From: Pseudomonadota bacterium
Lineage (GTDB): Bacteria > Pseudomonadota > Gammaproteobacteria > Burkholderiales > JABEVD01
Direction of reading: 5' to 3'
DNA length: 64,000 nucleotides
NCBI GenBank assembly: GCA_021802545.1
Contig: JAJZRS010000005.1
Span: forward strand, 1-64,000
In this document: positions 1 to 17,890 of the stretch, in pieces
Layout: each line of letters starts with the position of its first letter
Numbering within the stretch: position 1 is the stretch's first letter
Made by a program: the position numbers and the translations under genes
Notes under the pieces: generated by a model
The model's input: the letters and a program-made list of their open reading frames with translations, nothing else
The model's database searches: none
Told to the model about the DNA's origin: nothing

Positions 1-2276
1 ATCTTGATGAAGTCGATGACGAACAGATAGGCGATCACGGCGACAATCAGGCCGAGCACAAGATCGACCGGTATGGGCGCCATCAGGATGCCTCGGGTGG
101 AAAGGATCCCGACGGCGAGAATATCGAAAAGGCTCGCGGTCAGCAGCCATTTGCTCGGGACCGAACTCCAGAAATGTTTCCTTTCTCGAACCAGATAAAC
201 GTTCCCCTGGCCGGTTAATACCAGCATGACGAAAACGAGCGTCTGCAGTTCTTTCAATGGAAGATGAAGCCAGTCTCGTCCGACGAAAAAAACGGTGAAG
301 GAAAGAATCAGCACGAAAGCTGCCAGGATGCCAGCGGTCGCCATCAGCTGGGGAACGTTCCAGCGTTCCGGCTTTTTCGAATAGGAAACGTTGTCCGTCG
401 CGATCGACATGGTCACGAAGTCGTTAGTGAATAGAAGCAGGACGATCAGCATCGGCGTGATGACGAAAACACCTGTCAACATCACGCCTACGCTCATGAA
501 GATCGCGATTTCCATGGTCTTGATGATCTTGTTGAGCGTGTAGGTCAGCATGCGCTGGTAAATTCGCCTGCTCGTCCTGACCGCCTCTGCCATGTCAGAC
601 AGTCCCGGCCTGGTGAGAACGAGGCTGGCGGCTGCCTTGGCGACGTCCGTCGCATTCGCCACTGCGATCCCGACTTCGGCCTGCTTCAGAGCAGGCGCGT
701 CGTTGACGCCGTCCCCGCTCATGCCGACCACCTGCCCCGCCCGCTGCACTTCCTGTACCAGACTGTACTTGTCTTCCGGCAGCACTCTCGCATAGACGTC
801 GTAATCCAGTACATGACGCTTCATTTCGTCGCCCATGTGTTCCGGCGGGCAAACGCGATTCCCAATCCCGACTTGTTCTGCTATCGCTCGGGCTGTGGCA
901 GCCCCGTCACCGGATACCATCAATACGCGCACGCCGAGATCGTGTAGCTCGTCAATCAGCGATTTCGAATCGGTCCTGGGCGGATCCTGAAGGCCGACGA
1001 ATCCCGCGAGGGTCATGACATCCTGTTCGACTGCGACGGCCAGGATGCGCGATCCGTCGGAGCCAAGGCTCTCGGCGTCCGCACCTTTCCCTGCAAGGGA
1101 GGAGATGACTCCCGGTGCTCCCTTGAGCACGTGCATCGTTTTTCCGTCCTGCTCGAAATAAGCCTCCGAGCGCTTTGTCTCCGGATCGAAAGGAACGAAT
1201 TTCACGCGTATCGGCATGCCTTCGAGCACTCCCCTCAATCTGGCAGCTTCCAGAATGGCGAGGTCGATTGGGTCCTGGGTGGCTTCGTCGCATGCGAGCG
1301 CTGCAAGACGAAGAAGCGCTTCTTCAGAGAAGGATCCATGGGGATGGAGCATGGAAAGCGCAAGCCTGTTCTGGGTGATGGTGCCTGTCTTGTCTGTGGC
1401 CAGCACTTCCATCGATGCGGCATCCTCGATCGCGGAAAGACGCGTCACCAGCACCCCGCTTTTGGCGAGTTCCACTGCGCCGAGGGCCGTGGCAAGCGTA
1501 TAGGTTGCCGGAAGCGCAATGGGGACGGAGGCTACAAGCAGGATCAGCGCAAAAGGGACGATTTCGGCGATCTGAATACCGTAGGCGAAGGTATAGACGA
1601 GCAGCGCCGCGACGAGCGCGATGTCCATTGCGACAAGATACCTGACGATCTTGAAGATCAGCGTTTCGAGATGGCTCGCCGTCTTTGCGCTGCGCACGAG
1701 CTCTGCTGTCTTTCCGAAATAGGTTCGCGCGCCCGTTGCGGTCACTTCGCCTGTAGCCTCGCCGCGCTTGACGATGACACCGGCATAGGCGGTACTGCCT
1801 GGCGTACCTTCGACGGGCAGGGCTTCTCCCGTCAGGGAAGACTGGTCGAGCTGACCCTGCCCTTCAACGAGGCGCATGTCGGCGGGAACGAAATCTCCCA
1901 TCCTCAGGTAAACCACGTCGCCCGGAACGAGATCCTGAGCCAGGACCATTTTCCAGGCATCGTCACGCAGGACCCTTACCCTGATTTCAAGCCGGCTCTT
2001 CAGCAAGGCAAGCGCATTGTCGGCGCGGCTTTCCTGAATGAAGCTCAGGATCGCATTGAATACAAGCAAAGCGCAGATGACGACAGCCTCATCCCGTTTT
2101 CCAAGAAAGAGCTGAAGGGCGATCGTTGCCTCGAGCATCCAGGGGACCGGCGCCCAGAATTTCCTGAGGAAGGAAATCCACGGACTGCGTCGATCTTCAT
2201 AGATCGCGTTCGGTCCGAATTGAAGCAGCAGGTTCCTCGCTTCTTCGCTGGTCAATCCCTTTGTGGCTACAGACAT
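1..2276 (-). CDS. P3A-type plasma-membrane proton-efflux P-type ATPase, C-terminus cut by window edge
   Basis: The frame opens with ATG at 2276 and is still open at base 1, giving about 758 residues. Seen: an N-terminal cation-ATPase segment, the actuator motif SLTGEALP, the membrane motif VPIALPATYTLA, the phosphorylation motif DKTGTITQN with Asp about residue 295, and the hinge motif SGDGVNDAPA. The short N-terminus, absence of heavy-metal domains and the VPIALP form point to the P3A H+-ATPase family, which expels protons across the inner membrane using ATP. Oddity: the nucleotide-domain motif is VSGDGAATA where the family usually has TGD followed by a polar residue. The closest alternative would be another P-type cation pump, but the P3A signature is strong. 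The gene stands alone on this strand; its 5' side is a 476-bp spacer. Confidence 0.9.
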   Translation of the reverse strand, partial: MSVATKGLTSEEARNLLLQFGPNAIYEDRRSPWISFLRKFWAPVPWMLEATIALQLFLGKRDEAVVICALLVFNAILSFIQESRADNALALLKSRLEIRVRVLRDDAWKMVLAQDLVPGDVVYLRMGDFVPADMRLVEGQGQLDQSSLTGEALPVEGTPGSTAYAGVIVKRGEATGEVTATGARTYFGKTAELVRSAKTASHLETLIFKIVRYLVAMDIALVAALLVYTFAYGIQIAEIVPFALILLVASVPIALPATYTLATALGAVELAKSGVLVTRLSAIEDAASMEVLATDKTGTITQNRLALSMLHPHGSFSEEALLRLAALACDEATQDPIDLAILEAARLRGVLEGMPIRVKFVPFDPETKRSEAYFEQDGKTMHVLKGAPGVISSLAGKGADAESLGSDGSRILAVAVEQDVMTLAGFVGLQDPPRTDSKSLIDELHDLGVRVLMVSGDGAATARAIAEQVGIGNRVCPPEHMGDEMKRHVLDYDVYARVLPEDKYSLVQEVQRAGQVVGMSGDGVNDAPALKQAEVGIAVANATDVAKAAASLVLTRPGLSDMAEAVRTSRRIYQRMLTYTLNKIIKTMEIAIFMSVGVMLTGVFVITPMLIVLLLFTNDFVTMSIATDNVSYSKKPERWNVPQLMATAGILAAFVLILSFTVFFVGRDWLHLPLKELQTLVFVMLVLTGQGNVYLVRERKHFWSSVPSKWLLTASLFDILAVGILSTRGILMAPIPVDLVLGLIVAVIAYLFVIDFIK

Positions 2277-2752
2277 TGTTGGATGAATGAACTCATGCGT
2301 CCGAATGAAGGCATCTCTGGAATTATATTCAACGCATGCAAGGGAATCGATTAATTTATATTTATCCAGCGTGATACCAGGAAACTGACTGGACGTTTTT
2401 CGGCCCTTATGCCGGTCGGGTGCCTGATCACATCGGGCAGGAATGCGCCGATTATCTGCCGTTTAATCTCGGATGGCTCGATCGGCGGCAAAGGGCACCG
2501 ACCACCCATTGACGCAGCCATCGTCGATCTTGCATAAAAAGCCAGTGACGGCTTCCTGGCGCATCGCCGAATACGAACGCCATGCCCTTGCTCCTGTCGG
2601 TAAATCATTTGGACTAGCAATTCATACGGCTGATAATCTGACTAACTCGTCCTATAGATCCATGAATCAACCGCTAGACCGACAGAAATCATGGTCCATG
2701 CAGAATATCCCTATTAATTAGACGATTATTCAAGGTAGAATAATTCCATGTC
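2277..2752. other. 476-bp intergenic stretch, no supported gene
   Basis: The spacer lies between two divergently transcribed genes. Two short open frames (2351-2620 minus, 2473-2721 plus) have no recognisable domain and no good ribosome site. A plus-strand frame around 2390-2514 reads as protein-like (residues WTFFGPYAGRVPDHIGQ and onward) but has no clear start and ends at a TGA, so it may be a decayed remnant. The last 100 bases are AT-rich and probably hold the promoter of the downstream signalling gene. Confidence 0.4.
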
Positions 2753-5221
2753 TTGACCTTGAGAATCTGCATTGTGGTCGACCCCAAGCAGAAAATAACA
2801 GCAATTGATTCCCTCTACGAAAGTATCCTGAACTTCGTTCCGGTTGGCGTGTACATCTGGCGCCACTATGCGGATGAGACGATGGGGTTCGAGTACGTCA
2901 GCCCTCCGTTCTGCCAATTGCTCGGACTCGACGCAAAGACCATCCTTGAGGATTACCGGTGTACCTTCGACATCGTTCATCCAGACGATATCGAATCCTT
3001 GAATCAGTACAACCAGAAAGCGCGCGAGTCCCTGACGGTATTCAATTGGACAGGCCGTTTTCTGGTTCATGGCAAGGTGCGCTGGATGCGCATCAAGGCT
3101 GATCCAACGCCTGAAGCAGACGGCGGCAGTTTGTGGATCGGCGCCATCAGCGACGTCACTGACCTGAAGACGGCGGAACTCGCGCTTCAGGAATCCGGCA
3201 AGACCTACGAGTCGCTGTTTACCAACATGCTCAACAGCTTCGCCCATTGCCGAATGATTTACGAAAGCGACATCCCTGTCGATTATGAAATCCTCAGGGT
3301 CAATCCAGCTTACGTAAGAGTTACGGGACTCAAGGACGTCGAGGGTAAAAGGATCAGCGAAGTCATTCCGGGATATTGCGAGCAAAGCTCGGAATCGCTC
3401 GAGAAATTCGACCAGGTGGTCAAGTCGGGTATCCCGGCGAGATGGGAACATTACTTGAGCCTGCTCGACAGATGGTACTCGTTCATGATTTACCGCCCTG
3501 CAGAGGGGGAATTCGTACTGATCAGTGAGGACATCACCGAAAGAAAGCATGACGAGGAGTCGCTTCAACAGGCTGACATGGTGTTCAGAAGCACCGGAGA
3601 AGCCATTGTACTGACCGATGCGGATAACAACATCATCGCAGTCAACCCGGCCTTTACAGAAATCACGGGCTACAACGAATCCGAAGTCATCGGAAAGAAC
3701 CCCAGAATTCTCAGCTCCGGCCTTCAGGACACGTCTTTCTATCAGGCGATGTGGCGCCAATTGAATGAACAGGATAGATGGCAAGGAGAAATTCTGAATC
3801 GTCGCAAGACAGGCGAGGTTTACGCCGAACAACTGTCGATCAACATCATCAGGAGCGGTGGCGGAAAAGTCTATCGCCATGTCGCCCTATTTTCGGACGT
3901 CACCGAGAAAAAGCGTACTGAGGAAATCATCTGGCGCCAGGCCAATTACGATGCCCTGACCAGCTTGCCCAACCGCAGGATGTTTCTGGATAGATTTGCC
4001 CACCAGTTGAAACAGGCGAATCGGTCCGGCGAAAAACTTGCTTTACTGTTCGTCGATCTCGACCGATTCAAAGATATCAACGACACCCTCGGTCATCTGG
4101 TCGGAGACGAGATGCTCATGGAGGCAGCCAGTCGCCTCAAGGAATGCATCAGAGAAACGGACATGGTCTCTCGCCTTGGAGGAGACGAATTCACGGTCAT
4201 CCTCAATCACCTTCAGTCGGTAGGGGATGTTGACCATGTTCTGCAATCCATCTTGTCCAGGCTTTCCAGGCCCTACATGATCGGCAGCGAGCGCATCTTT
4301 TCTTCGGCGAGCATCGGCATAGCTGTTTACCCGGACGACTCGATCCAGCCTGAAGAACTGCTCAAATTTGCCGATCAGGCCATGTATGTAGCCAAACAGG
4401 AAGGCAGGAATCGCTACAGCTTCTATACCCATGAATTGCAGGAAACCGCTCGGGAGCGAATCCACATGTTGTCGGAATTGCAGGGTGCGCTTGCTTCGAA
4501 TCAGTTCAGGGTGTATTTCCAGCCTATCGTGGAACTCGCAACAGGACAAGTTCACAAGGCTGAAGCCTTGTTGCGCTGGCAGCATCCGAACCGCGGACTG
4601 GTGAGCCCATCAACCTTCATCCCGCTGACGGAAGAGACGGGGCAGATCATCGAGATCGGCGACTGGGTGTTCCGCGAATCGATGGGCTGGGTGAAGCGAT
4701 GGAATGATTTATCGAATGAAGGCTTCCAGATCAGCATCAACAAGTCCCCCGTGCAGTTTCGGGCAAGCCATCATGCCGGTACATCCTGGCTTGCGTATCT
4801 CGAAGAACTGGGACTGTCAGGACACAACCTGGTGATTGAAATTACCGAAGGCATGCTACTCAATCAAGACGACCAGACCTTGAACAAACTCATACAGTAT
4901 CGCGATTCCGGAATCCAGGTGTCGATCGACGATTTCGGCACAGGTTACTCGGCGCTCTCCTATCTTCAGCGATTCGATATCGACTATCTCAAGATTGATC
5001 AGTCCTTCGTGCGCAACATGGCAGTTGACTCTTCAGATCTGGCCTTGTGCGAAGCAATTGTCGTCATGGCGCACAAATTGGGCCTAAACGTCATCGCGGA
5101 AGGGATAGAAACCATTGAACAGCGGGACCTACTGACATCAATCGGATGCGATTACGGGCAAGGATTTTATTTTGCCAAACCCATGCCGGGAGAAGAGTTC
5201 GAAAAGTTGCTGTATTCATAA
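2753..5221 (+). CDS. PAS-PAS-PAS-GGDEF-EAL cyclic-di-GMP signalling protein
   Basis: A protein of about 822 residues with no predicted membrane segment. Three PAS-like domains occupy roughly residues 20-140, 150-270 and 275-400, followed by a GGDEF domain (motif SRLGGDEF, 476-480) and an EAL domain (EALLRW from residue 604). The diguanylate cyclase half keeps the inhibitory site (RETD, five residues before GGDEF). The phosphodiesterase half keeps EAL, ISINKS, EITEG, DDFGTGYS, LKID and AEGIET, so both activities look intact. It probably makes or degrades c-di-GMP in response to a PAS-sensed signal. The start is uncertain: TTG at 2753 opens the frame, GTG at 2774 is an alternative, and an ATG at 2748 is out of frame and followed at once by TGA. 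It is monocistronic. Confidence 0.92.
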   Translation: MTLRICIVVDPKQKITAIDSLYESILNFVPVGVYIWRHYADETMGFEYVSPPFCQLLGLDAKTILEDYRCTFDIVHPDDIESLNQYNQKARESLTVFNWTGRFLVHGKVRWMRIKADPTPEADGGSLWIGAISDVTDLKTAELALQESGKTYESLFTNMLNSFAHCRMIYESDIPVDYEILRVNPAYVRVTGLKDVEGKRISEVIPGYCEQSSESLEKFDQVVKSGIPARWEHYLSLLDRWYSFMIYRPAEGEFVLISEDITERKHDEESLQQADMVFRSTGEAIVLTDADNNIIAVNPAFTEITGYNESEVIGKNPRILSSGLQDTSFYQAMWRQLNEQDRWQGEILNRRKTGEVYAEQLSINIIRSGGGKVYRHVALFSDVTEKKRTEEIIWRQANYDALTSLPNRRMFLDRFAHQLKQANRSGEKLALLFVDLDRFKDINDTLGHLVGDEMLMEAASRLKECIRETDMVSRLGGDEFTVILNHLQSVGDVDHVLQSILSRLSRPYMIGSERIFSSASIGIAVYPDDSIQPEELLKFADQAMYVAKQEGRNRYSFYTHELQETARERIHMLSELQGALASNQFRVYFQPIVELATGQVHKAEALLRWQHPNRGLVSPSTFIPLTEETGQIIEIGDWVFRESMGWVKRWNDLSNEGFQISINKSPVQFRASHHAGTSWLAYLEELGLSGHNLVIEITEGMLLNQDDQTLNKLIQYRDSGIQVSIDDFGTGYSALSYLQRFDIDYLKIDQSFVRNMAVDSSDLALCEAIVVMAHKLGLNVIAEGIETIEQRDLLTSIGCDYGQGFYFAKPMPGEEFEKLLYS

Positions 5222-5627
5222 TTCAACATCGAAGAGGCTGATTTCAAAATGATGCCGCCCTGTCGAATAATAAAATGTGGCAATACTGGAGGGCCGCCTT
5301 TGGCACGTGGAGCACCAGTTCGCTGAAATAGAAAGCAGCCATTCGCGGTAAAGAACCGTGGAACGGCAGGTTCCGTCACCTACCGGCCCGACTTGGTGAA
5401 ACTGACCTACGGCCGTTTTGTGGCCGAAATTCGGTCATAGTGGATTCAAGACGTTATTTATCGCCACAATTGAAACAACAATGCTTGTTCTCAAAAAGAA
5501 AGGTGCCCGAAGGCACCTTGAAATCCGCATCAAGGGGGTAAATGCGGCAGGTGAAGGCTGGATCAAATATCGTGCTTCATTGCATAGAAATGAATGATGT
5601 CCTCAGACGATGCGGAGAATGTCGCTG
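5222..5627. other. Intergenic stretch with a minus-strand terminator, otherwise empty
   Basis: This is the convergent spacer between the GGDEF/EAL gene and the small membrane-protein operon. Apart from the terminator at 5493-5519 and a short inverted repeat around 5410-5430 (CGGCC paired with GGCCG), I see no gene. The short open frames here have no recognisable protein character. Base composition resembles the flanks. Confidence 0.4.
5493..5519 (-). terminator. Intrinsic terminator of the small membrane-protein operon
   Basis: On the minus strand an 8-bp perfect stem (AAGGTGCC / GGCACCTT) with a TTCG tetraloop is followed by TCTTTTT. The plus-strand reading has no T-run, so it ends minus-strand transcription, 108 bp after the last small gene. 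Confidence 0.85.
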
Positions 5628-5759
5628 TTACCTCATGTGCGGAGCAATGAAGTAGTAGAAAACGAATGTTGCCGCGATATTGAAAACAACGATGAACGCG
5701 AGAACTTCAAGTCCGATGGCAAGGTAGTTAGGACCGGCCTGATCGTTTTTCCTGTTCAT
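5628..5759 (-). CDS. 43-aa single-pass membrane protein, unknown function
   Basis: Reads MNRKNDQAGP then a hydrophobic segment (about residues 13-38) and ends IAPHMR. The ATG overlaps the TGA of the preceding 40-aa gene (ATGA at 5759-5756), so translation is probably coupled. I do not recognise a family. The polar Asn/Lys/Asp N-terminus and short cationic C-terminus are typical of small accessory subunits of membrane complexes, which is inference only. Support comes from the coupled junctions on both sides of its neighbour, codon use like real genes, and the terminator just downstream. Confidence 0.7.
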   Translation of the reverse strand: MNRKNDQAGPNYLAIGLEVLAFIVVFNIAATFVFYYFIAPHMR

Positions 5760-5878
5760 TGCAGTCCCAGCCACTTGTCGATCAGACCAATGCGCTCGAG
5801 CACGATGAAGAGGACGATACCCAAGACAAACCCTATTCCGAAGGGCAAAATCAGTTGGTGGATGGCGAGGTCATTCAT
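5756..5878 (-). CDS. 40-aa single-pass membrane protein, unknown function
   Basis: Begins MNDLAIHQLILPFG, has one hydrophobic helix (about residues 9-27) and ends LIDKWLGLQ. Its ATG overlaps the TGA of the 146-aa gene and its own TGA overlaps the ATG of the 43-aa gene, both as ATGA. Two back-to-back couplings in frames this short are hard to explain unless all three are translated as one unit. No family recognised. Confidence 0.7.
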   Translation of the reverse strand: MNDLAIHQLILPFGIGFVLGIVLFIVLERIGLIDKWLGLQ

Positions 5879-6315
5879 GACAATTCTCCTTTGATGATTG
5901 CGTTTTTACTTCCTGCATTTCCTCCACCATAAGCACCAGCCATCACCTCGCCGATTATTCCGCCAAAATTAGCGGATTCGACGGCGAGTATGATGCAGGG
6001 TCCCCAGTAAAAGAGATTGAGCTGGTAGAAGAAGTCGCCGTGCGGATGAAAATAGTGCAGGTGAAGAAAGCTCGCACTCCTCACCGCGAGCGGAGGGATG
6101 CAGGCAAGATATTTCCCGCCCTTGAATCCGTATATTTTCGAGACGAAAAGGCCGGTTGCAAATGGCACCAGGAAAATGTCCATCATCCACGGGAAGGTGA
6201 AAGTTGTCATTCCCGAGAATATTTCTATCTTGACGCCGAGCAGCATGTCGCCGAGAAAATTCACGACAATTCCGGCAAGCACGGCCGCAACCCCAATTTT
6301 CTGTTTCCGGTTCAT
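5875..6315 (-). CDS. 146-aa multi-pass membrane protein with a His-rich motif, unknown function
   Basis: First gene of a three-gene operon. ATG at 6315 follows a near-perfect ribosome site (AGGAGG, 6-7 bases upstream). Three to four hydrophobic segments are visible, about residues 6-27, 40-62, 70-88 and 98-125. Between the middle and last segments lies a His cluster, HLHYFHPHGDFF, which could bind a metal or haem; that is inference. A Gly-rich stretch (GAYGGGN) precedes the C-terminus. I do not recognise the family. It is divergent from the MocR-type regulator at 6425, a usual arrangement for a regulator and its target, so its expression may respond to an amino compound or a vitamin B6-linked signal. 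Confidence 0.8.
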   Translation of the reverse strand: MNRKQKIGVAAVLAGIVVNFLGDMLLGVKIEIFSGMTTFTFPWMMDIFLVPFATGLFVSKIYGFKGGKYLACIPPLAVRSASFLHLHYFHPHGDFFYQLNLFYWGPCIILAVESANFGGIIGEVMAGAYGGGNAGSKNAIIKGELS

Positions 6316-6377
6316 GTTTTCCTCCTGATACGGGTCTGCACGGTGTTTACATTAACGGACAATGGACGCACAATACA

Positions 6378-6412
6378 TGTACACTTAATCTATTGGTCAT
6401 CGGTACTGTACA
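6378..6412. promoter_or_regulatory. Candidate MocR operator: two TGTACA repeats
   Basis: In the 109-bp divergent spacer, TGTACA occurs at 6378-6383 and again at 6407-6412, 29 bp apart, about three helical turns. MocR-family regulators typically bind repeated sites next to their own gene. The assignment is inference from position and repetition. Confidence 0.45.
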
Positions 6413-6424
6413 GGTTGGGCGACC

Positions 6425-7825
6425 ATGTCAATTATCAGTCTTGATCCGGGAGATACGCTTCCGCTCATCGATCAGATCGCGAACTCGGTCAGGAAGATGA
6501 TCGACGACAGGGCGCTTCGGGCGGGTTCGCGCATGCCGTCGATCAGGCAGTTCGCCAAGGACCACGGGGTCAGTACGTTCACCGTCGTTCAGGCATATGA
6601 CAGGCTCGTCGCCATGGGTTATCTCCAATCGAGACAGGGTTCCGGATTCTACGTCTTGCAGCGGCACCTGCCGCATTCCTCCGCCGATAGCCACTATGTT
6701 CCGGACAGCGCCGTGGATATCGTCTGGTTGCTAAGAAACTCGCTGGAACACAGATCAAGCAGCACCATGCCGGGCGCATGGTGGCTTCCCGCATCCTGGA
6801 TGGAAGAAACCGGGATAAAGAAGAGCCTGAGGGGACTTGCGCTCAAGAAGGGTGAATTCCTGACGGCCTACGGCACGCCCGCAGGCTATTTCCCTTTGCG
6901 TGAACTCCTGCGCAACAAGCTTGCCGCCATGGGAATCGGCGCAGATGTATCGCAAATCGTGCTGACCTCGGGGGTGACCCATGCCATGGACCTCGTCTCC
7001 AGATATTTCGTCAGGTCGGGGGACACCGTGCTGGTCGACGACCCGGGTTACTTCATCCTGTTCGGGGGACTGAAATCATTTGGCGCCAAGATCGTCGGCG
7101 TCCCCTGGAACTCGGACGGACCTGACACGCACATCATGGAAGAACTGATCAAGGAGCACCATCCCAGGCTTTTCTTCACCAATACAATCCTGCACAATCC
7201 GACCGGCGCGAGCATCAGCCAGCCAGTTGCATATCGAATGCTGCAGCTCGCCGAAAAATACGACCTGATTCTCGTCGAGGATGACATTTATGGCGATTTC
7301 CATCCATCGACCGTGACGCGTCTCGCAACGCTCGACCAGCTCAATCGCGTCATCTACGTCAGCAGCTATTCGAAGACGGTATCGGCCAGCCTCAGGGTGG
7401 GTTTTTTCGCCTGCAACCCAGATCTCGCCGCCAATCTCTGCGACGTCAAGCTATTGACCGGACTCACCACTTCGGAAATCAGCGAGCGGCTGATGTACCA
7501 GCTGCTTACCGAGGGGCACTATCGGAAACACATGGACAAGCTCAGGGCAAAGCTCCTGTCCTCGAGACAGCACGTCATTTCAAGGCTGGAGTCACTCGGC
7601 TTTGCGGTACATTGCGACCCGGAAGGCGGGATGTTCGTCTGGGCGAGACTAGCTGAGAACTGCAATTCTGCGGAAATCGCAGGACTCGCCGCAAAGAAGG
7701 GGATCATGCTCGCACCAGGGAACATGTTCAGGCCGCATCAGGAACCGTCCCCCTGGTTCAGGTTCAATGTTGCACACTGCAACGACGATGCGACTTTCGA
7801 TTTTCTTGCTTCATACACACAATAA
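6425..7825 (+). CDS. MocR-family transcriptional regulator (GntR winged helix plus aminotransferase-like domain)
   Basis: A 466-residue protein. Residues 1-80 form a GntR-type winged helix (MPSIRQFAKDHGVSTFTVVQ, then GYLQSRQGSGFYV). Residues about 120-460 form a fold-type I aminotransferase domain with the PLP lysine in SSYSKTVSASLRVGF. Such proteins use PLP as part of ligand sensing rather than catalysis and regulate vitamin B6, GABA, taurine or transporter genes. The specific ligand cannot be read from the sequence. It is divergent from the small membrane-protein operon at 5628-6315, its most likely target, and may also regulate the transporter at 8120. Confidence 0.92.
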   Translation: MSIISLDPGDTLPLIDQIANSVRKMIDDRALRAGSRMPSIRQFAKDHGVSTFTVVQAYDRLVAMGYLQSRQGSGFYVLQRHLPHSSADSHYVPDSAVDIVWLLRNSLEHRSSSTMPGAWWLPASWMEETGIKKSLRGLALKKGEFLTAYGTPAGYFPLRELLRNKLAAMGIGADVSQIVLTSGVTHAMDLVSRYFVRSGDTVLVDDPGYFILFGGLKSFGAKIVGVPWNSDGPDTHIMEELIKEHHPRLFFTNTILHNPTGASISQPVAYRMLQLAEKYDLILVEDDIYGDFHPSTVTRLATLDQLNRVIYVSSYSKTVSASLRVGFFACNPDLAANLCDVKLLTGLTTSEISERLMYQLLTEGHYRKHMDKLRAKLLSSRQHVISRLESLGFAVHCDPEGGMFVWARLAENCNSAEIAGLAAKKGIMLAPGNMFRPHQEPSPWFRFNVAHCNDDATFDFLASYTQ

Positions 7826-8119
7826 CGATTAATCAGTTTGGCTTTACTTGTCTGGGTCAGTCTCAAACTCGATGGTTTGGCTGTGCCAAATTGAGGAATG
7901 CGAGCGTGTCAGCAATGACCAGCAGCCATGGTTGCAAGATGTCGTCACAGGCACCTTCGGCCGAAATGCGGGAAAAGGCCACGTTGAACGAAGCGTTCCG
8001 GAGTATCGGAACACTTCGATTTTTGGGAGAATGGCGCCTGAATATTCATCAAGTCTGGAGCCAATCTTGCAAATTCATATCGGCGATGACCGCGCAGGCG
8101 TGATTTCCACGCCAGGATC
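7826..8119. other. 294-bp spacer with no supported gene
   Basis: Two overlapping short frames (7848-8123 and 7891-8103) lack domain character, ribosome sites and plausible amino-acid composition. The stretch probably holds the promoter of the transporter at 8120, but no clear -35/-10 pair is visible. Confidence 0.4.
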
Positions 8120-9937
<1,818 letters not shown>

Positions 9938-10017
9938 GCATATCGCAATCTGCTCATAATCTTCTGTTAACAATCAGCCCATACAATGCAATCATCCAGA
10001 CTGCATGAGGGCGAGAC

Positions 10018-10119
10018 ATGTATACCTATGAGATCCTGATCGAGATGGCTATCGAATTCGCTATTCTGTTGCTGCTCATTTGGGTCGAGGAACGCTTCCT
10101 GTCTGCCCGCCATTCCTGA
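10018..10119 (+). CDS. Possible 33-aa membrane miniprotein
   Basis: ATG at 10018 follows GAGGGCGAG and opens a 33-residue frame, MYTYEILIEMAIEF then a run of Ile/Leu (about residues 11-22) and a charged tail (WVEERFLSARHS). The composition fits a single-pass membrane miniprotein. The last 44 bases overlap, antisense, the 3' end of the DUF3025 gene. There is no homology evidence, so this remains tentative. Confidence 0.35.
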   Translation: MYTYEILIEMAIEFAILLLLIWVEERFLSARHS

Positions 10120-10879
10120 TCCTTCCTCGCCTGAAATAGCTTTCGTTGTCGTAATAGGCGGGGTCTTCGTTTCCATCTGCCCAGCCCGGCACGCCGAGCA
10201 GGGGCAGCGGGCATAAATCGCGGGGCGTCGCGATTTTCGAGAAAATTTGTTCGAAAGACGAATCGAGCCGTTCAATCTGCATGTCGATGGGCAATGCGAA
10301 AAACGCTTCTTCCACGTGAAAGAGGACTGCATGTCCCGTGAGTCCGACGTAGGGTGAGAGCGCTTTCTCATACAGGCCATGGCCGAAAATGTAGAAGCGC
10401 ATCTCTTCCATGACTTTTTTCCTGTTGTCGAGGAAAAGGGATTTCCATTCGAAGCGTTTCAGCATGTTAGACAGCGACGGGTTCGACGATGCGACGATGA
10501 CGCCCGATTCGTCAAAAAGGGTGGCGATGTCGCGCATCTTCCCCCGCCTGCCGTCCTCCTCCTTCTTCATTTCCCTGACATGCAGCCGGTTGAGAAAGGA
10601 CTTCGCTTTCGGAAAGCTCATCCAGACGAGCGCATTGAAAAGATCGTGCCAGGATGCTTCCCGCGTGTGCACTTCCCCTTCGAGATATATCCTTTTTTCG
10701 TAATTTTCGCAGCTGTCTTTCACGAACCTGACGGGCAGCCCGCTGCTGTTTCTGACGTGACAAGCGAGCTGGCTCAGGGATTCATGGGAAGGCCAGCCAC
10801 GAAGCTTCATGCAAAAATGCCTGATCGGCACGAACATTTCCGATCCTGCATGAAAATCGGCGATCCAGCCGTCAGCCAT
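10076..10879 (-). CDS. DUF3025 domain protein
   Basis: A 267-residue protein. The family hallmark is visible as SWHDLFNALVWMSFPKAKS near residues 75-95, with LFDESGV and HGLYEKAL further on and the terminal LLGVPGWADGN motif. Function is not established for the family. The start is taken as ATG at 10879 (MADGW), which overlaps the hpnC stop by 8 bases; the frame is open further upstream (to 10954) but that part is inside hpnC. It is the last gene of the long rnfA operon, directly after hpnC. Confidence 0.85.
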   Translation of the reverse strand: MADGWIADFHAGSEMFVPIRHFCMKLRGWPSHESLSQLACHVRNSSGLPVRFVKDSCENYEKRIYLEGEVHTREASWHDLFNALVWMSFPKAKSFLNRLHVREMKKEEDGRRGKMRDIATLFDESGVIVASSNPSLSNMLKRFEWKSLFLDNRKKVMEEMRFYIFGHGLYEKALSPYVGLTGHAVLFHVEEAFFALPIDMQIERLDSSFEQIFSKIATPRDLCPLPLLGVPGWADGNEDPAYYDNESYFRRGRIRNGGQTGSVPRPK

Positions 10880-11684
10880 ACAGGGCGCGCAACAAGAGAA
10901 GAACCCAGTCGGCCTTTTCGAGCTTTGGGCGGCGCCTGTAGACATCCCATTCAACCTTTTCCAGCTTGTCCAGTATGGCCAGCCCCCCCAGGACGATCAT
11001 CTTCATCTCGAACGAGATCCTTCCTCTCATGATTTTTGAGAGCGGCGCGCCTTCCAGCATCATTTCCCTCGCTCTTTGCGATTGATGCGCCATGAGCTCG
11101 CGCCATGCGCCTCCTGCATTTCCCTTGGCGATGGCTTCTTCATCGATGCCGCAGGACTTCATTTCGTCCTGGGGCAAGTAGATCCTTCCCAATCTATGGT
11201 AATCGATGGAAACGTCCTGAAGGAAATTGATGAGCTGCAGGCTCGTGCAGATCTTGTCGGACAATTTTATGCTCTCTTCCGAATCGAAGCCGTAGAGCGC
11301 AAGCAGCAGCCTGCCGACCGGGTTGGCCGATTTTTCGCAGTAGGCGAGCACTTCGCAAAAATTCGCATAGCGCTTTTTCATCACGTCCTGGGAAAAGGCG
11401 TCGAGCAGATCATAGAAGGGGGGCAATGGGAGATGGTGTTGCCTGATGATCACGGAGAGCTCCGCGAAAAGAGGCGATTCGGGAATTTTTCCGCTCCCGA
11501 TTCTTGCGAGCTCCTGCCTGAATCCATCGAGCAGGGAAAGCCGCTCCTGATCCGCCATCTCTCCTTCGTCAGCGAAATCGTCCGCTTGTCTTGCGAAGGC
11601 GTAGATCAGGCCGACCGGTCGTCTGTATCGGCGCGGCAGGGCCAGCGATGCGACAGGGAAATTTTCGTAATGCTTTGAAGACAA
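10872..11684 (-). CDS. hpnC: Squalene synthase-like protein HpnC
   Basis: A 270-residue trans-isoprenyl diphosphate synthase fold. The first acidic motif is in FARQADDFADEG and the second in NFLQDVSIDYHRLGRIYLP. HpnC, with HpnD and HpnE, makes squalene from two farnesyl diphosphates via hydroxysqualene in hopanoid producers; HpnC converts presqualene diphosphate to hydroxysqualene. hpnD and hpnE are not in this window. The start is TTG at 11684, preceded by GGAG inside the cheB stop region; the N-terminus HYENFPVAS matches the family's usual beginning. Confidence 0.9.
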   Translation of the reverse strand: MSSKHYENFPVASLALPRRYRRPVGLIYAFARQADDFADEGEMADQERLSLLDGFRQELARIGSGKIPESPLFAELSVIIRQHHLPLPPFYDLLDAFSQDVMKKRYANFCEVLAYCEKSANPVGRLLLALYGFDSEESIKLSDKICTSLQLINFLQDVSIDYHRLGRIYLPQDEMKSCGIDEEAIAKGNAGGAWRELMAHQSQRAREMMLEGAPLSKIMRGRISFEMKMIVLGGLAILDKLEKVEWDVYRRRPKLEKADWVLLLLRALYG

Positions 11685-11686
11685 GG

Positions 11687-12346
11687 CTATGCTCCGAGAT
11701 GAAGCATGACGCGATTGGCCATTTCATCGATCGGAACGATTTCGTCCACCGCGCCAACGGCGATGGCTTCCCTGGGCATGCCGAAAACGACGCAGCTCGC
11801 CTCGTTCTGTGCGAAATTGTGCGCGCCTGTCTGCTTCATTTCGAGCATGCAAAGCGCGCCGTCCTTGCCCATTCCTGTGAGGATCACGCCGACCGCATTC
11901 TTTCCAGCGACATTGGCTGCGGAGCGGAAAAGCACGTCGACTGAAGGGCGGTGCCTGTTGACGGGCGGCCCCTGGTTGAGTTCCGTGACATAGCTCGATC
12001 CTGCTCTTCCGACAAGCAGATGGGAATGGCCGGGCGCGACATAGGCATGGCCGGGCAGGATTCTTTCTCCATGCTCGGCTTCCTTGACGCGGATTTTGCA
12101 AAGGCCGTTCAGGCGCTCCGCGAAAGGCTTCGTGAAGGCCTCGGGCATGTGCTGGGAAATCAGGATGCCGGGGCAGTTTTCCGGCATGGCGACCAGAAAA
12201 GTCTTGATCGCCTCGGTGCCGCCCGTCGATGCACCGACAAAGATGAGCTTCTCTGTGACGGGGACATTCTGGGCGTGGAAAAGGAGGATGGCATCCGCAG
12301 ACAGGCTGGGCTGCACGGGAGGATGCTCGCTATTTGGCAAGTTCAT
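11687..12346 (-). CDS. cheB: CheB-type protein-glutamate methylesterase, catalytic domain only
   Basis: A 219-residue protein consisting only of the CheB catalytic domain. The triad is intact and spaced as in Salmonella CheB: Ser40 in GASTGG, His66 in SQHMP and Asp162 in TGMGKDGA. The N-terminal receiver domain that normally represses and activates the enzyme is absent, replaced by about 30 residues without a fold. It would remove methyl groups from chemoreceptor glutamates, or act on another protein. The start at ATG 12346 overlaps cheR by 17 bases. No cheA, cheW, cheY or receptor gene lies nearby. Confidence 0.9.
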
Positions 12347-13133
12347 AGACAGTCTTCCCGCGCAGCCTGAAAATATCCGGGACATGATGGAAGCTTTCGG
12401 AATGGCCTGCGAAAAGCAGGCCGTCCTTCTTCAGGAGCGGGGAGAATTTCCTCAGGATTTTCGCTTGGGTGTCCTTGTCGAAATAAATCATGACGTTGCG
12501 GCAGAAGATCGCGTCATACGGCCCTTTCGCAGGCCATCTGTCGTCCAGCAGATTGATTTTCTCGAAGCTGACCATTTCCCTGATTTCGGGCTTGATCTTC
12601 GCCATGCCACCGGGCAGCTCGACGAAATATTTCTTCAGCTTGTCAGTCGGAACCTTTTCCAGCTGGGAAGCATTATAGAGGCCATCCTTGGCCTTTTCCA
12701 GGACGCCCGTGTCGACATCGCTCGCCAGGATGGTGACTGGCGGGCGCAGGGTGTCGAAGAGATCGGCCATGGTCATTGCCATCGAATAGGCTTCTTCTCC
12801 CGTCGAGCAGGCGGCGCACCAAAGCGAGATGTGCGACTTTTTCGATCGGACATGTTCGGCAAGGGCAGGAAAATGGTGCTCTTCCCTGAAGAAGAAGGTC
12901 AAATTCGTGGTGAGCGAATTGATGAACGCTTCCCATTCGGCGCTGCTCCCTGCCTCGAGAAGCGCGATGTAATCGGAAAATGAGGTGAGCCTGTTTGCGC
13001 GCAAGCGCTTGGCCAGCCGGCTGTAGACCATTTCCTGCTTGCTCTGGTTGAGCGAGATGCCGGCCCGTTGGTAGATCAAGGCTCTCACGCGATCGAAATC
13101 CTTTTCGGTGAATTCGAATTCCCTCGAATTCAT
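12330..13133 (-). CDS. cheR: CheR-type protein-glutamate methyltransferase
   Basis: A 267-residue protein with the CheR N-terminal helical domain (about 1-75, with [19 protein letters not shown]) and the SAM-dependent methyltransferase domain ([11 protein letters not shown] near residue 110, NVMIYFDKD near 220). It methylates glutamates of chemoreceptors using SAM. The start at ATG 13133 overlaps the TGA of the DUF1841 gene (ATGA). Paired with a receiver-less CheB and lacking other chemotaxis genes, it may serve an orphan receptor set or a non-motility target. Confidence 0.92.
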
Positions 13134-13534
13134 GCCCGCCTCTCCAGGCATTCGAAATAAATGCCCGAATCGAGCTGGGTATTCTGCCGCTGCGCCTGCC
13201 AGATCATTTCGCCAAGACATTCCATGACCTGGTGATATGCGTTATGCCTCGATTCCGATTTCACGAGGATGGATTCGAAGTGCTTCTTGATGCCGAACGG
13301 CTGGTCGATCGAGAGCTGCTCCATGACGGCAAGATGGAGGCTCAGATGAAGAAAGGGATTTTCTTCGCTGTTTTCCGCAAGCTCGGGATGGTTGAGCACG
13401 GGATGGTATTCAGGATGAATCAGCATGATGCCCAGCGCCATGGATTCGAGCGGGGTGAGCAAAGCCTTCTCCTGGTGCTTTTTCCAGGCTTCGCAGAAGA
13501 ACCGCCTCACTTCATCGCGTGTCGGGTTGAACAT
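13130..13534 (-). CDS. DUF1841 family protein
   Basis: A 134-residue soluble protein beginning MFNPTRDEVRRFFCEAW, with LTPLESMALGIMLIHPEYH near residue 30 and NPFLHLSLHLAVMEQLSIDQP near 60, the conserved blocks of DUF1841 in beta- and gammaproteobacteria. Function unknown. The pairs of His in the middle block might bind a metal. It starts one base after the nth stop and overlaps cheR by ATGA. Confidence 0.88.
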   Translation of the reverse strand: MFNPTRDEVRRFFCEAWKKHQEKALLTPLESMALGIMLIHPEYHPVLNHPELAENSEENPFLHLSLHLAVMEQLSIDQPFGIKKHFESILVKSESRHNAYHQVMECLGEMIWQAQRQNTQLDSGIYFECLERRA

Positions 13535-13535
13535 G

Positions 13536-14168
13536 CTAGACGGATTTCCCCTTGTATTCGCAATATTCCCTGATCAGGCAGGCCGGGCAATCCGGTTTTT
13601 TCGCCTTGCAGACGTAGCGCCCGTGCAGGATCAGCCAATGATGGGCATCGTGCCTGAATTCTTCCGGCACGGCCTTCATCAGCTTCGTTTCGACTTCGAG
13701 CACGTTCTTTCCCGGGGCAATGCCGGTCCGGTTGGAGACGCGGAAAATATGCGTATCGACGGCGATGACCGGCACGCCGAACGCGGTGTTGAGGATCACG
13801 TTGGCCGTTTTCCTGCCCACGCCGGGGAGCGCCTCGAGTTCTTCGCGGGTTTTCGGCACCTGGCCATGATGGCGCTCGACGAGGATCCTGCAGGTTTCTA
13901 TGATGTGCTTCGATTTCGTCTGGTAGAGCCCGATCGTACTCACGTGTTCCCTGAGTTTTTCGAGGCCGAGAGCCAGCATCTTTTCAGGGGTGTCGGCTGT
14001 CTTGAACAGGCTTCTCGTTGCGAGATTGACGCCCTTGTCCGTGGCCTGGGCCGAAAGGATGACGGCGATCAGGAGCTCGAACGGGGAGCCGTGTTCAAGC
14101 TCTGTCGTCGGGTGCGGATTGGCAGCCTTGAGTCGCTCGAAGATTTTCTGACGCGTTTCCCTGTTCAT
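13536..14168 (-). CDS. nth: Endonuclease III
   Basis: A 210-residue DNA glycosylase/AP lyase that removes oxidised pyrimidines in base excision repair. Seen: helix-hairpin-helix [11 protein letters not shown] with its catalytic Lys, the catalytic Asp in VDTHIFR, and the C-terminal [4Fe-4S] ligands [17 protein letters not shown] (C-X6-C-X2-C-X5-C). The start is ATG at 14168, overlapping the rnfE stop. The rnfE-nth neighbourhood is the same as in enterobacteria. Confidence 0.96.
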
Positions 14169-14836
14169 GCGCTCTGCAGGGAAGGGGCGGGAATCTGGGC
14201 TCTGGCAGCCCTTGCGTCGAGCCGGTTCTTCAGGGCGATCAGCAAGCCGAGCCCGATGAATGCGCCTGGCGGCAAAATGGCGAGCAGGAAGCCGTGGTAA
14301 TGGGGGAACACGGTGATGACGAAGGATTTCGCGGAATCGCCGAACACCAGATCGATCCCTGAAAAAAGCGTCCCCTTGCCAAAAATCTCGCGCATGCCGC
14401 CCAGGAGGGCGAGCACCAGGGTCAGCCCCATGCCCATCATGAATCCGTCGAAAACCGAAGGCAGCGTCTTCTGCTTGGAGGCGAAAGCTTCCGTTCTGGC
14501 CAGCACGATGCAGTTGGTCACGATCAGCGGGACGAATATCCCGAGGACCAGGTAGAGCGAGTGCAGATAGGCCTTCATGACGAGCTGGATGATGGTCACC
14601 AGGGATGCGATGATCAGGATGAAGACTGGAATCCTGATTTCGCCCGGCACCAGGTTCCTGATCAGGGATACCGCGAGATTGCTGAGCGCCATGACGAGCA
14701 GGGTCGCAAGCCCCAGGCTGACGCCGTTCACCACCGAACTGCTGACGGCGAGCAACGGGCACATGCCGAGCAGCTGCACCACCCCGGTGTTCTGCTTCCA
14801 GAGGCCGTTCTTCGCTATCTCGATGTATTCGTTCAT
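14165..14836 (-). CDS. rnfE: Rnf electron transport complex subunit RnfE
   Basis: A 223-residue integral membrane subunit with about six helices, starting [18 protein letters not shown] and containing [15 protein letters not shown] and [15 protein letters not shown], typical of RnfE/RsxE (NqrD homologue). Cys in CPLL and TNCI help hold an intramembrane iron site shared with RnfA. It is coupled by ATGA to rnfG upstream and nth downstream. Confidence 0.95.
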
Positions 14837-15468
14837 TTTTCCTTCCCTTGCGCAAAAAGCATGGCCTTGTTTGCCGAGAAATACAGAAGCGCCTTGTGCA
14901 CCGCCTTGACCACGGCTCTGGGGGTGATGGTCGCGCCTGTCATGTAATCGAACTGCCCGCCGTCTTTCCTGACATGCCATGCCGCATCGGTGACGGAGCC
15001 GAGGGAGGCATGGTCGAATCCCTTGATCCAGTCGCTCTTGGCGATTTCGATGTAGTCGCCAAGCCCTGGCGTCTCGTTCTGGCTGATGACCCGCACGCCC
15101 GATATTTCGCCGCTTGCCAATATGCCGATGAGCAGGGTGATCCTGCCCGCATACCCGTCCGGGGCGGTGGCCTCGATCATGACCGCAACAGGCTTGCCGT
15201 GGAATCTTGCCCGGTAGGCCGTGACCGGCTTGCTGTTGCCGAGCAGCTCACTGGGCGGAATTTCGACCGTATCGTGGATCAGGTCGTTGTCCGACATTCC
15301 GGGTGGAAACACCTGGTTGATCAGGGAAAGCTTTTCTTCGGCTTCGCTCTTGGAAATTAAATCATGAGTCCTGTCGTAGGTCAAAGCGAGCAGCGTCGTG
15401 GCGAGCAGGACGAAGGCCAGCATGATGAGGGAAGTGCGCAATGAGGTCTGGATGAGGCCGCGCTTCAT
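14833..15468 (-). CDS. rnfG: Rnf electron transport complex subunit RnfG
   Basis: A 211-residue protein with one N-terminal membrane helix (about 10-30) and a periplasmic FMN-binding domain. The covalent FMN site is [10 protein letters not shown] near residue 180, where the second Thr carries the flavin. [13 protein letters not shown] is the other family block. It passes electrons between the RnfD flavin and the rest of the complex. Both ends overlap neighbours by ATGA. Confidence 0.95.
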
Positions 15469-16472
15469 TTCTTTTTCCCGAAAACCGGAGGCTGGGTATA
15501 GGCGTCGATCAGCGGCACGCAGATGTTCATCAGGAGCACGGCGAAAGCAACGCCGTCAGGATAGCCGCCGTGGAGGCGTATGACGTAAGTCAGAAATCCC
15601 GCGCCGGAAGCGAAAAGCAGCTTGCCCTTGGGCGTGGTGGGTCCGGTCACGGGGTCGGTCAGGATGAAGAATGCACCGATCATGGTGGCCCCCGAGGCGA
15701 GCTGGAAAAGGGGGGATGCGTAATGTGCCGGATCGACGAGATGCAATGCCCCGGAGAGGATGGCGATCGTTCCGATGAAGGATACGGGGACATGCCAGCT
15801 GACGATCTTCTGCTGCAACAGGTAGAGGCCGCCTGCCAGATAGGCCGCAGCCATCCATTTTCCGCCAATTGTTCCGTAGATCGGCAGGCTCATGATCGCA
15901 TCCATCGATTTGTCGAGATGGAGCTGGGTCTTGAGCGTATCCAGCGGGGTCGCCGAGGTCAGGGCGTCGAGTCCCGTGTTTGCCGGAAGAGCATGGAAAA
16001 ACATGTAATCGAGAATCGATGAAAAATCGAGATGAGACTGCGCGATGGAAGCAGGGGCGAGCCATTGCGTCATCTGGACAGGGAAGGAAATGATGAGCAC
16101 GGCATAGCCGACCATGGCCGGATTGAACGGATTGCTGCCGAGCCCGCCGTAAAGGTGTTTTGCGATCACGATGGCAAATGCCGTTCCCGTCACGATCAGC
16201 CACCATGGCGCCATGGGCGGGATGGAAAGGCCGAGCAGCCATGCGGTGAGGAGCGCGCTGCCGTCCATGAGAAAAGGCTTCACCGGCCTTCCCCTGAGCC
16301 TCAGCATGAATGCTTCCAGAACGAGCGCTGTCACGCTTGCGAGCGCCAAGGTCACGAGCACGGCAGGGCCGAAGAACCATACGTCTGCAGCAATCGCGGG
16401 AATCAGGGCCGCGAGCACCTTCACCATGATCTCGGTCACGGAAGGGGAGCGGGTGATGTAGGGTGAATTCAT
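15465..16472 (-). CDS. rnfD: Rnf electron transport complex subunit RnfD
   Basis: A 335-residue, roughly ten-helix subunit (NqrB homologue). The covalent FMN site is in LASGATMIGAFFILTDP near residue 240, with KHLYGGLGSNPFNPAM another diagnostic block. It begins [16 protein letters not shown] at ATG 16472, overlapping the rnfC stop. It forms the membrane core of the NADH/ferredoxin-coupled ion pump. Confidence 0.95.
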   Translation of the reverse strand: MNSPYITRSPSVTEIMVKVLAALIPAIAADVWFFGPAVLVTLALASVTALVLEAFMLRLRGRPVKPFLMDGSALLTAWLLGLSIPPMAPWWLIVTGTAFAIVIAKHLYGGLGSNPFNPAMVGYAVLIISFPVQMTQWLAPASIAQSHLDFSSILDYMFFHALPANTGLDALTSATPLDTLKTQLHLDKSMDAIMSLPIYGTIGGKWMAAAYLAGGLYLLQQKIVSWHVPVSFIGTIAILSGALHLVDPAHYASPLFQLASGATMIGAFFILTDPVTGPTTPKGKLLFASGAGFLTYVIRLHGGYPDGVAFAVLLMNICVPLIDAYTQPPVFGKKK

Positions 16473-17890
16473 AGTTCCTTCGCCTGGGCCGATTTTTGGG
16501 CGAGACGTTCCGCCTTTTCGCGCTTGTCCCGTTCCATGCGCTCGACCCTGAATTCGTGGCGCAGCCTGGCCAGGTCGGATGCCTTCTTTTCCCGTTCCTG
16601 CGCCCAGATCTCGCTTTTGGCGTAGCGGTAATACTGGACGAGCGGAATATGGCTGGGACAGACGTAGCTGCAGCAGCCGCATTCGATGCAGTCGAAAAGC
16701 GCGTATTCCTGCGCCTTGCCGAAATTTTTCGCCTTGGCGAACCAGTAGAGCTCCTGCGGCTGCAATTCGGCAGGGCAGCTTTCGGCGCATCTCGCGCAGC
16801 GTATGCAGGGCATGGGGTCTAGCGCCTTCGGGAAGAGCGCTTCAGACTTCACGATGACGCAGTTCATCGCCTTGACCACGGGAACATGCGTCGAAGGCAG
16901 GTCGATGCCCATCATCGGCCCGCCCATGATCGCGCCCGAACTGCCGGGAAGCGCGCCTGCCTGCCTGATCAGGTGGTCGACGGGCGTGCCGATCAGCGCT
17001 TCATAATTGCCTGGCTGCGCCACGTTGCCGGTGATCGTCACGATGCGGCTCAGGACGGGCTCGCCGAGCCGGATTGCGCGGTAGACGGAAGCCGCCGTGG
17101 CGACATTGAAGCATTGCACGCCGAGGTCGGTGGAGCGTTCCCCGGCAGGCACTTCGACGCCTGTGAGCACCTTGATCAACTGCTTCGCACCGCCGCCGGG
17201 ATAGACCGTCGGGACGGCGACGACTTCCATGCCGCCTGCCGATTTCATCGCTTCGATCGCCAGTGGCTTGTTGTCTTCGATCCCCAGCACCACTTCCTCG
17301 GCGCCCAGGAGACGCTGCATCAGTTTCGCACCTTCGGCGATCTCGAAGGCGCGCTCGCGCATCAGGAGATCGTCGCAGGTGATGTAGGGCTCGCATTCGG
17401 CACCGTTCAGGATCAATGTCCTGACCTTGTTTTTCGATCCGGGATTGAGCTTGATGAAGCTCGGAAAAACGGCGCCGCCCAGGCCCACCACGCCCGCGTC
17501 CTTCAGCTTCGTTCTCATGGTCCCGGGATCCATTTCAGGATCCAGCGGCACGCGTTCTATCCATTCTTCAAGCCCGTCGGGCTCCAGAATGACGCATAGC
17601 GCGTCCAGGCCCGAAGGATGCGGAACGGGTTCCATGCCGACCGAAAGAATTTTTCCGGATGTCGGGGCATGGATCGCGCTCGAAACATGGCCTTCGGGTT
17701 GGCCGATCATCTGTCCCTTCAGGACGCGCTCCCCGGGCTGGACGAGCGCTTTCGCGCTGCTGCCGATATGCTGATGGAGCGGTATGATCAGCTTCTCGGG
17801 CAGGGGCGGGATGCGGATCGGGTCTATCGTCGATTGATCCTTGTGCTGCGGCGGATGAACGCCGCCATTGAAATGGTATAGCTGCCTCAT
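16469..17890 (-). CDS. rnfC: Rnf electron transport complex subunit RnfC
   Basis: A 473-residue peripheral subunit. An N-terminal barrel-sandwich part is followed by the NADH/FMN-binding domain ([32 protein letters not shown]), an SLBB domain ([14 protein letters not shown]) and two [4Fe-4S] motifs ([24 protein letters not shown]). It exchanges electrons with NAD(H). The C-terminus is a short charged coil ([16 protein letters not shown]) without the long Ala-rich extension of E. coli RsxC. ATG at 17890 overlaps the rnfB stop. Confidence 0.96.

Follow-up and report, generated by a model that had tools for sequence, protein, structure and literature searches.

The 64-kb stretch of DNA analysed here (the window) contains a gene for a MocR-type regulator and, divergent from it, a cassette encoding membrane proteins of 146, 40 and 43 amino acids. 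By homology and phylogeny, the 146-aa protein is a diverged orphan paralogue of a membrane protein encoded in cbb3-like oxidase operons. On balance we lean toward the view that the locus supplies alternative small membrane components or assembly factors for a cbb3-like terminal oxidase, switched by MocR. The link to the oxidase is drawn from this paralogy, the operon context, the cbb3-like identity of the operon and the separate clade formed by the orphan copies, and further from the co-occurrence of MocR, the 40-aa gene and the operator boxes, a CcoG-like gene in one congener and the precedent of MpaR.

Layout of the cassette and selection on its genes

The features of the locus are as follows (coordinates in the window).

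6425..7825, + strand: MocR-type regulator, 466 aa, with a winged HTH and a fold-type-I PLP domain (Pfam)
6404..6414, unstranded: predicted operator box 1, CCTGTACAGTA read toward the cassette, in a conserved place in MocR-bearing genomes
6369..6384, unstranded: predicted operator box 2, TGTACATGTATTGT read toward the cassette, probably overlapping the −35 element
6349..6354, − strand: TAATGT, the probable −10 element for transcription of the cassette, from its conserved position
5875..6315, − strand: 146-aa membrane protein, orphan type (type B), probably with four transmembrane segments (homology and hydropathy)
5756..5878, − strand: 40-aa single-pass miniprotein, found in every MocR unit (ORF, homologues and Ka/Ks)
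5628..5759, − strand: 43-aa single-pass miniprotein (ORF, homologues and Ka/Ks)
5500..5519, − strand: terminator-like stem-loop with a T tail (intrinsic type), ~110 bp past the 43-aa stop

The 146/40 and 40/43 junctions are both ATGA overlaps. The 43-aa frame begins with ATG at 5759, while the ORF list starts it at an open GTG five codons upstream (48 aa). The cassette and MocR are separated by 109 bp (MocR ATG at 6425), and TGTACA is found at 6378-6383 and 6407-6412. This hexamer occurs 6 times in the window versus 2.1 expected, and a count of at least 6 was reached in one of 100 shuffles. The terminator-like stem at 5519-5500 (− strand) has 8 counted pairs and a T-rich tail, and is among the four terminator-like sites of 5200-6500, versus 1.3 in shuffles. 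The arrangement described in the initial annotation, with three frames joined by ATGA and closed by a hairpin, agrees with the ORFs and their coordinates; so does the divergent MocR gene across a 109-bp gap with two TGTACA repeats, as the Pfam matches (GntR and Aminotran_1_2) and the location of both boxes indicate.

No Rfam family was found in 5200-6450. PADLOC gave no match for the cassette, PHROG gave weak matches only (E 0.09 and 0.86), and no relative of query A1 was found in viral contigs. Elsewhere in the window, apparent Rnf-type electron transport genes were recognised by eye at 13130-18295 (an RnfG-like frame at 14833-15468 and its neighbours).

The assembly that holds the window (G000, 2.77 Mb) was compared with eight congeners (G001-G008; genus set n = 9 with G000). 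All three frames are under purifying selection. Ka/Ks was 0.08-0.24 in 15 of the 16 pairwise comparisons of the 146-, 40- and 43-aa genes, which used G000, G005 and G008 and, for the 40-aa gene, also G002 and G004; the 16th, a 43-aa pair, was saturated at synonymous sites and gave no ratio. Nucleotide changes in the three frames of these genomes fell mostly at third positions, and the lengths and frames of all three genes were retained in G005 and G008. Thus the two miniproteins, suspected earlier of being easily missed by gene callers, were borne out as real genes by Ka/Ks and by their retained lengths and frames.

The 146-aa protein and the cbb3-like oxidase operon

The 146-aa protein had no Pfam or NCBIfam match at E <= 10, its family profile found nothing in the PDB, and an AF2 model built from three sequences had a mean pLDDT of 48 and was unusable. 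A homologue search of 100 genomes gave matches in 9, comprising five orphan copies (type B) and nine copies of a second, operon type (type A). Identity of the type B copies to the 146-aa protein was 100% in G000, 82% in G005, 79% in G008, 57% in G049 and 56% in G093; that of the type A copies was 38-44%. The window's own genome holds a second copy, of type A, at G000:C36:940-1326 (E 5.3e-26, 42% identity). A profile of the 14 copies, which found both types and had been built from both, matched 31 of 369 genomes of the class, including G000 (both copies) and a weak partial match in G265 (E 0.0015), and 43 of 398 genomes of the phylum sample, G000 counted. In a tree of 47 rows the five type B copies formed one clade (100/100) apart from the 42 operon-type copies. 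The type B lineage occurs in two families of the order.

No cytochrome c or FGE-like (formylglycine-generating-enzyme-type) neighbour was found by type B in window positions 1-14000 or in loci L015, L016, L018 and L019, which marks type B as an orphan paralogue and not an operon member. Outside G000, 33 loci were examined (19 from the class, 14 from the phylum), and in 31 of them type A had both a cytochrome c gene and an FGE-like gene beside it; in L078 and L177 one of the two was missing where the contig ends. The operon was followed in G007 (L020), G049 (L021) and G093 (L022). The gene order runs from CcoN-like and CcoO-like proteins, and one that in L022 matches FixP_N weakly, through a pair of small proteins and a membrane cytochrome c to type A, which is followed by the FGE-like protein, a further two small proteins, a large protein weakly matching spermidine synthase, and a CcoG-like protein.

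Pfam and NCBIfam were run on L022, where the oxidase genes matched COX1 (8e-77) and FixO (1e-17) in Pfam and, as best NCBIfam models, ccoN-type (1.7e-70/8.8e-68) and ccoO (1.9e-18). For the CcoN, CcoO and CcoG-like proteins of L022 the matching NCBIfam models were the best or nearly the best, well under their cut-offs. The CcoN and CcoO scores lay under the equivalog cut-offs (229 versus 583 bits for ccoN, 67 versus 201 bits for ccoO), indicating a divergent cbb3-like oxidase. The CcoN of G007 (L020) aligned to P. stutzeri CcoN (3mk7) at 1.2e-60, and by our reading the histidines that bind haem and copper are aligned between the two. Judged by these matches, the type A operon encodes a cbb3-type (C-family) oxidase of a divergent form. 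The operon (L017, L020-L022) also has an FGE-like gene, the weak spermidine-synthase protein and several unnamed small membrane proteins among its members.

A search for CcoN in the assembly that holds the window found none: COX1 gave a strong match, which its neighbours, read by eye, mark as bo3 type, and a partial one over 103 positions. The downstream half of the operon in G000 lies on C36 (1-16909, L017), a contig that starts 939 bp ahead of the type A match; those of G005, G006 and G008 likewise start within 940 bp of type A. Such starts in four assemblies make an assembly gap a likely, if unproven, explanation for the missing CcoN. The contig breaks upstream of type A (G000:C36, G005:C63, G006:C12 and G008:C39) could be due to a CcoN-CcoO segment that hardly differs among coexisting strains.

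From hydropathy and the positive-inside rule, the 146-aa protein probably has four transmembrane segments with the HLHYFHPHG loop outside. The motif LHY-(x1-2)-HP-x-G was present in 5/5 orphan-type rows and 0/9 operon-type rows, and three of the orphan-type rows have Q, M or V in place of the His after HP. The motif is therefore not a family-wide ligand set. The metal or haem site considered at first could still exist as one peculiar to the orphan type. The charged residues D23, E31, R79, E113 and E123, in or near hydrophobic segments, are invariant, in the operon-type copies too. With regard to YczE/YitT, no Pfam YitT_membrane match was obtained for the 146-aa protein at E <= 10, and the 14 family rows gave only NCE101 in Pfam (one row, E 0.045), with no YitT_membrane.

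In G049 and G093 the type B gene is directly preceded by a gene for a short single-pass membrane protein of 64-67 aa (L018:6680-6874, L019:6589-6792), and two photolyase-like genes, named by eye, adjoin this pair. A partial survey of the literature found on MocR regulators and cbb3 oxidases (PMC4643136, PMC4944035, PMC10790758, PMC7029218, PMC4725956, PMC10734462), in the portions available, yielded no description of the 145-aa protein.

The MocR unit and its miniproteins in the genus

MocR was found at 78-100% identity in six of the nine genomes (G000, G002, G004, G005, G007 and G008). It was absent from G001, G003 and G006, and these three have no cassette-type 40-aa copy either. The 40-aa gene is present in the divergent unit of all six, first in G002, G004 and G007 and second, after the 146-aa gene, in G000, G005 and G008. 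In this comparison MocR, the two-box operator, the promoter and the 40-aa gene are the invariant core. The 146- and 43-aa genes are in the cassette of G000, G005 and G008 only, and in G002 and G004 the 40-aa gene stands alone opposite MocR. The unit of G007 consists of the 40-aa gene, a 43-aa frame with a frameshift (seen in one assembly and possibly an error) and then a 4Fe-4S membrane protein resembling CcoG.

The best NCBIfam model for this last protein was CcoG (8.6e-20, residues 12-197), at 71 bits versus a cut-off of 317, which was not reached, and a CcoG-like gene adjoins the cassette in 1/6 MocR-bearing genomes. A link to CcoG may be drawn from this one genome and from a score far below the CcoG cut-off. 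Members of the same CcoG-like 4Fe-4S family (60-77% identity to the G007 gene) also lie outside the operon at G007:C18, G008:C13, G006:C2, G002:C23/C95, G001:C35 and G003:C19; apart from the operon copy, relatives were not found in G000 or G005.

The idea of a fixed three-gene unit did not hold up, since the 146- and 43-aa genes vary and the 40-aa gene occurs without both in G002 and G004. Synteny told against it as well: in G049 and G093 type B has no adjacent 40- or 43-aa genes. There the 40-aa protein has a relative of 36-39 aa (E 3e-5 and 9e-5), encoded 13-14 kb from type B, and no relative of the 43-aa protein was found; a frame of ~53 aa that faintly resembles it follows the 36-39-aa relative (L050 ~9071-9400, L051 ~8516-8830). 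Among close relatives, the frameshift of G007 interrupts the 43-aa frame. The cassette has different flanks in G005 and G008, indicating that the module was moved or rearranged.

The regulator matched GntR (3.4e-14) and Aminotran_1_2 (4.5e-34) in Pfam; at E <= 0.001 no other protein of the 2.77-Mb assembly matched the GntR domain. By its domains it belongs to the MocR subfamily of GntR regulators. K317 (in SYSKT; within SFSKT in G007) and Y289 (in DDIYG) are presumably the PLP contacts. Among the best 25 of 88 NCBIfam matches the nearest named MocR model was PdxR, at 244.5 bits below a cut-off of 320, and none of PdxR, YczR, GabR, EhuR, PtsJ and the other named MocR models reached its cut-off.

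Boxes 1 and 2 and TAATGT keep the same spacing (29 and 29 bp) in all six MocR-bearing genomes. Invariant columns over the six number 7/10 in box 1, 13/15 in box 2 and 2/19 in the spacer between the boxes; box 1 has one changed base in G005 and two in G007, and TAATGT of G007 lies within TATAATGT. The TAATGT −10 element was not among the consensus promoter sites predicted for 5200-6500. From the distance between box 2 and TAATGT, box 2 would overlap the −35 element, a position that suggests activation by MocR, as with other regulators of this subfamily. The sole exact 14-mer match to box 2 in the assembly was the window's own site. With up to 2 mismatches 8 sites were found, versus 3 for the pattern read backwards, and a 1-mismatch site near a contig end (C17:343) was set aside as a further MocR target, being at about chance level by estimate.

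A gene for an EamA-family transporter (8120-8986, same strand) lies 294 bp behind MocR. As a shared neighbour it was rejected, for the window's transporter had no match beside MocR in L015, L016, L052, L053 and L054 (L052 and L053 are short contigs). More distant MocR relatives (42-45% identity) adjoin EamA/DMT transporters in G008:C42 and in two of the three plasmid records examined of 1737 matching.

These neighbours favour an alternative to which we give some weight while thinking it unlikely, namely that the 146-aa protein has left the oxidase and, with the miniproteins, moves a PLP-linked metabolite as a transporter or channel under MocR, as proposed for YczE under YczR. MocR genes are known to face, divergently, genes for membrane proteins of uncharacterised function (excerpts of PMC4944035); related MocRs adjoin EamA/DMT transporters, and one such gene lies behind MocR in the window; and the 146-aa protein has invariant charged residues within its hydrophobic segments or close to them. 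However, the operon-type copies share those residues, which thus do not set the orphan apart. What stays constant in the unit is the 40-aa gene and not the 146-aa gene, the latter's product has no YczE/YitT match, and in the sequence compared from five relatives the window's EamA gene has no counterpart next to MocR.

Both miniproteins have paralogues outside the cassette. A stand-alone paralogue of the 40-aa protein occurs in the window's genome (G000:C10:106370) and in five congeners (G002, G003, G004, G007 and G008). The paralogue of the 43-aa protein in the window's genome has 54 aa and a His/Met-rich tail (G000:C19:47525); if genomes whose single copy lies outside the cassette are counted, this genome and each of the eight congeners have an extra-cassette copy, which stands alone in the six of the nine genomes whose context was read. 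No oxidase genes were seen around the 40- or 43-aa paralogues where context was read. Outside G000, the sample of 369 class genomes, operon bearers included, yielded no convincing match to either family, and the miniproteins are therefore not general subunits of the operon oxidase. Class-wide matches at E <= 0.1 (30 and 43 genomes besides G000) were discarded, with best E of 0.0015 and 0.0012; they were short and often inside large frames or with stops. Likewise neither family matched a Pfam family or PDB chain below E 0.01; for the 40-aa family, DUF543 (8/14 members, best E 0.037) and DUF7299 (6/14, best 0.023) fell below the cut-off and were taken as hydrophobic chance matches. By hydropathy and charge, the C-terminus may lie inside in the 40-aa protein and outside in the 43-aa protein.

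We consider it quite improbable that the cassette encodes stress-induced hydrophobic miniproteins which act alone on the membrane, by YohP-like silencing or in a toxin-like manner, with the 146-aa gene added later. The 40-aa gene is indeed alone opposite MocR in G002 and G004, its family has stand-alone copies, and small stress-induced membrane proteins are a known class (excerpts of PMC12719787); against this, the miniprotein frames are under strong purifying selection, the 40-aa frame is coupled with the 146- and 43-aa genes and kept so in three genomes, and PADLOC, PHROG and Rfam offered nothing beyond the weak matches given above. That the locus is a decaying remnant, a duplicated respiratory piece under a leftover regulator, is very improbable, since the frameshifted 43-aa frame of G007 and the differing cassette content of congeners are outweighed by frames that in the window, G005 and G008 are intact and have Ka/Ks far below 1, by the conserved operator and by an orphan clade that spans two families.

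Proposed role and comparison with known systems

Accessory subunits of a membrane complex, as proposed in the initial annotation, are still the best idea for the three proteins, and the paralogy to the operon protein now points to the cbb3-like oxidase as the candidate complex. In the scheme that we infer, MocR would carry PLP and sense a signal, which may be an amine, an amino acid or a PLP-reactive respiratory inhibitor. It may then activate the cassette from box 2 at −35. The products may insert into the oxidase, or help to assemble it, in place of the standing copies, and the swapped-in products would change the performance of the oxidase under stress. The miniproteins may also serve something other than the oxidase.

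A broader and rather doubtful extension is that many proteobacteria have a divergent cbb3-like class with an unrecognised conserved four-transmembrane subunit, of which some have a second, non-operon isoform. To this the genus of the window would add two miniprotein isoforms under a PLP-based sensor of a PLP-reactive respiratory poison, for example cyanide, so that the oxidase is retuned.

Very short single-pass proteins tied to oxidases are known in CydX, CcoQ and CcoM. The 40- and 43-aa proteins resemble them in being very short and single-pass, but differ in that their families match no Pfam family or PDB chain below E 0.01.

The closest precedent is MpaR of P. aeruginosa, a predicted PLP-binding GntR regulator. 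According to the available part of the report, orphan ccoN4 and MpaR's own operon, which includes a CcoG orthologue, both depend on it, and it responds to cyanide; K314 is required and Y284 contributes (PMC10790758). The likeness of the window's locus to MpaR/ccoN4Q4/PA14_10540 lies in orphan cbb3 genes that adjoin a GntR regulator with predicted PLP binding, in a short palindromic site, and in CcoG, whose gene (PA14_10540) is in the MpaR-regulated set and of which a distant relative is in the G007 unit (PMC10790758, in part). MpaR and the window's MocR are likened by context and domain make-up only. The orphans differ, being catalytic CcoN and CcoQ with MpaR and, here, a small uncharacterised operon-protein paralogue and two miniproteins; the sites differ as well, ATCTGAT for MpaR versus the TGTACA boxes (same source and portion). 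In a partial survey, the MpaR paper was the only literature joining MocR, cytochrome oxidase, cyanide and pyridoxal.

YczR/YczE offers a second comparison: there too a MocR gene and the gene of an uncharacterised membrane protein diverge from an interval that holds repeated sites (PMC4944035, as excerpted). In contrast to that pair, the window's cassette shows no YczE/YitT similarity, its constant member is the 40-aa miniprotein, and its larger protein comes from an oxidase-operon family.

As for the operon, only subunits I and II were recognised for the cbb3 oxidase of 'Ferrovum' JA12, and neighbouring c-type cytochromes were proposed to replace III (PMC4725956, in the part available). By description, these genes with their co-localised c-type cytochromes resemble the type A operon. 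'Distal' and 'proximal' forms of ccoN are described in Zetaproteobacteria and Gallionellaceae (parts of PMC7029218 and PMC10734462). The accessible portions of these accounts of cbb3 oxidases in iron oxidisers (PMC4725956, PMC7029218, PMC10734462) mention neither a 145-aa membrane protein nor orphan copies.

An anonymous trio of tiny genes is thus linked to a conserved, so far unnamed membrane protein of a widespread oxidase operon. After MpaR-ccoN4 in Pseudomonas, the locus may be the second case of a PLP-type regulator set over spare oxidase parts, here over a part that has had no name. If this is true, the retuning of terminal oxidases through subunits swapped by PLP sensors would be more general, and the 145-aa family would be a candidate for the missing subunit or an assembly factor of this cbb3 variant.
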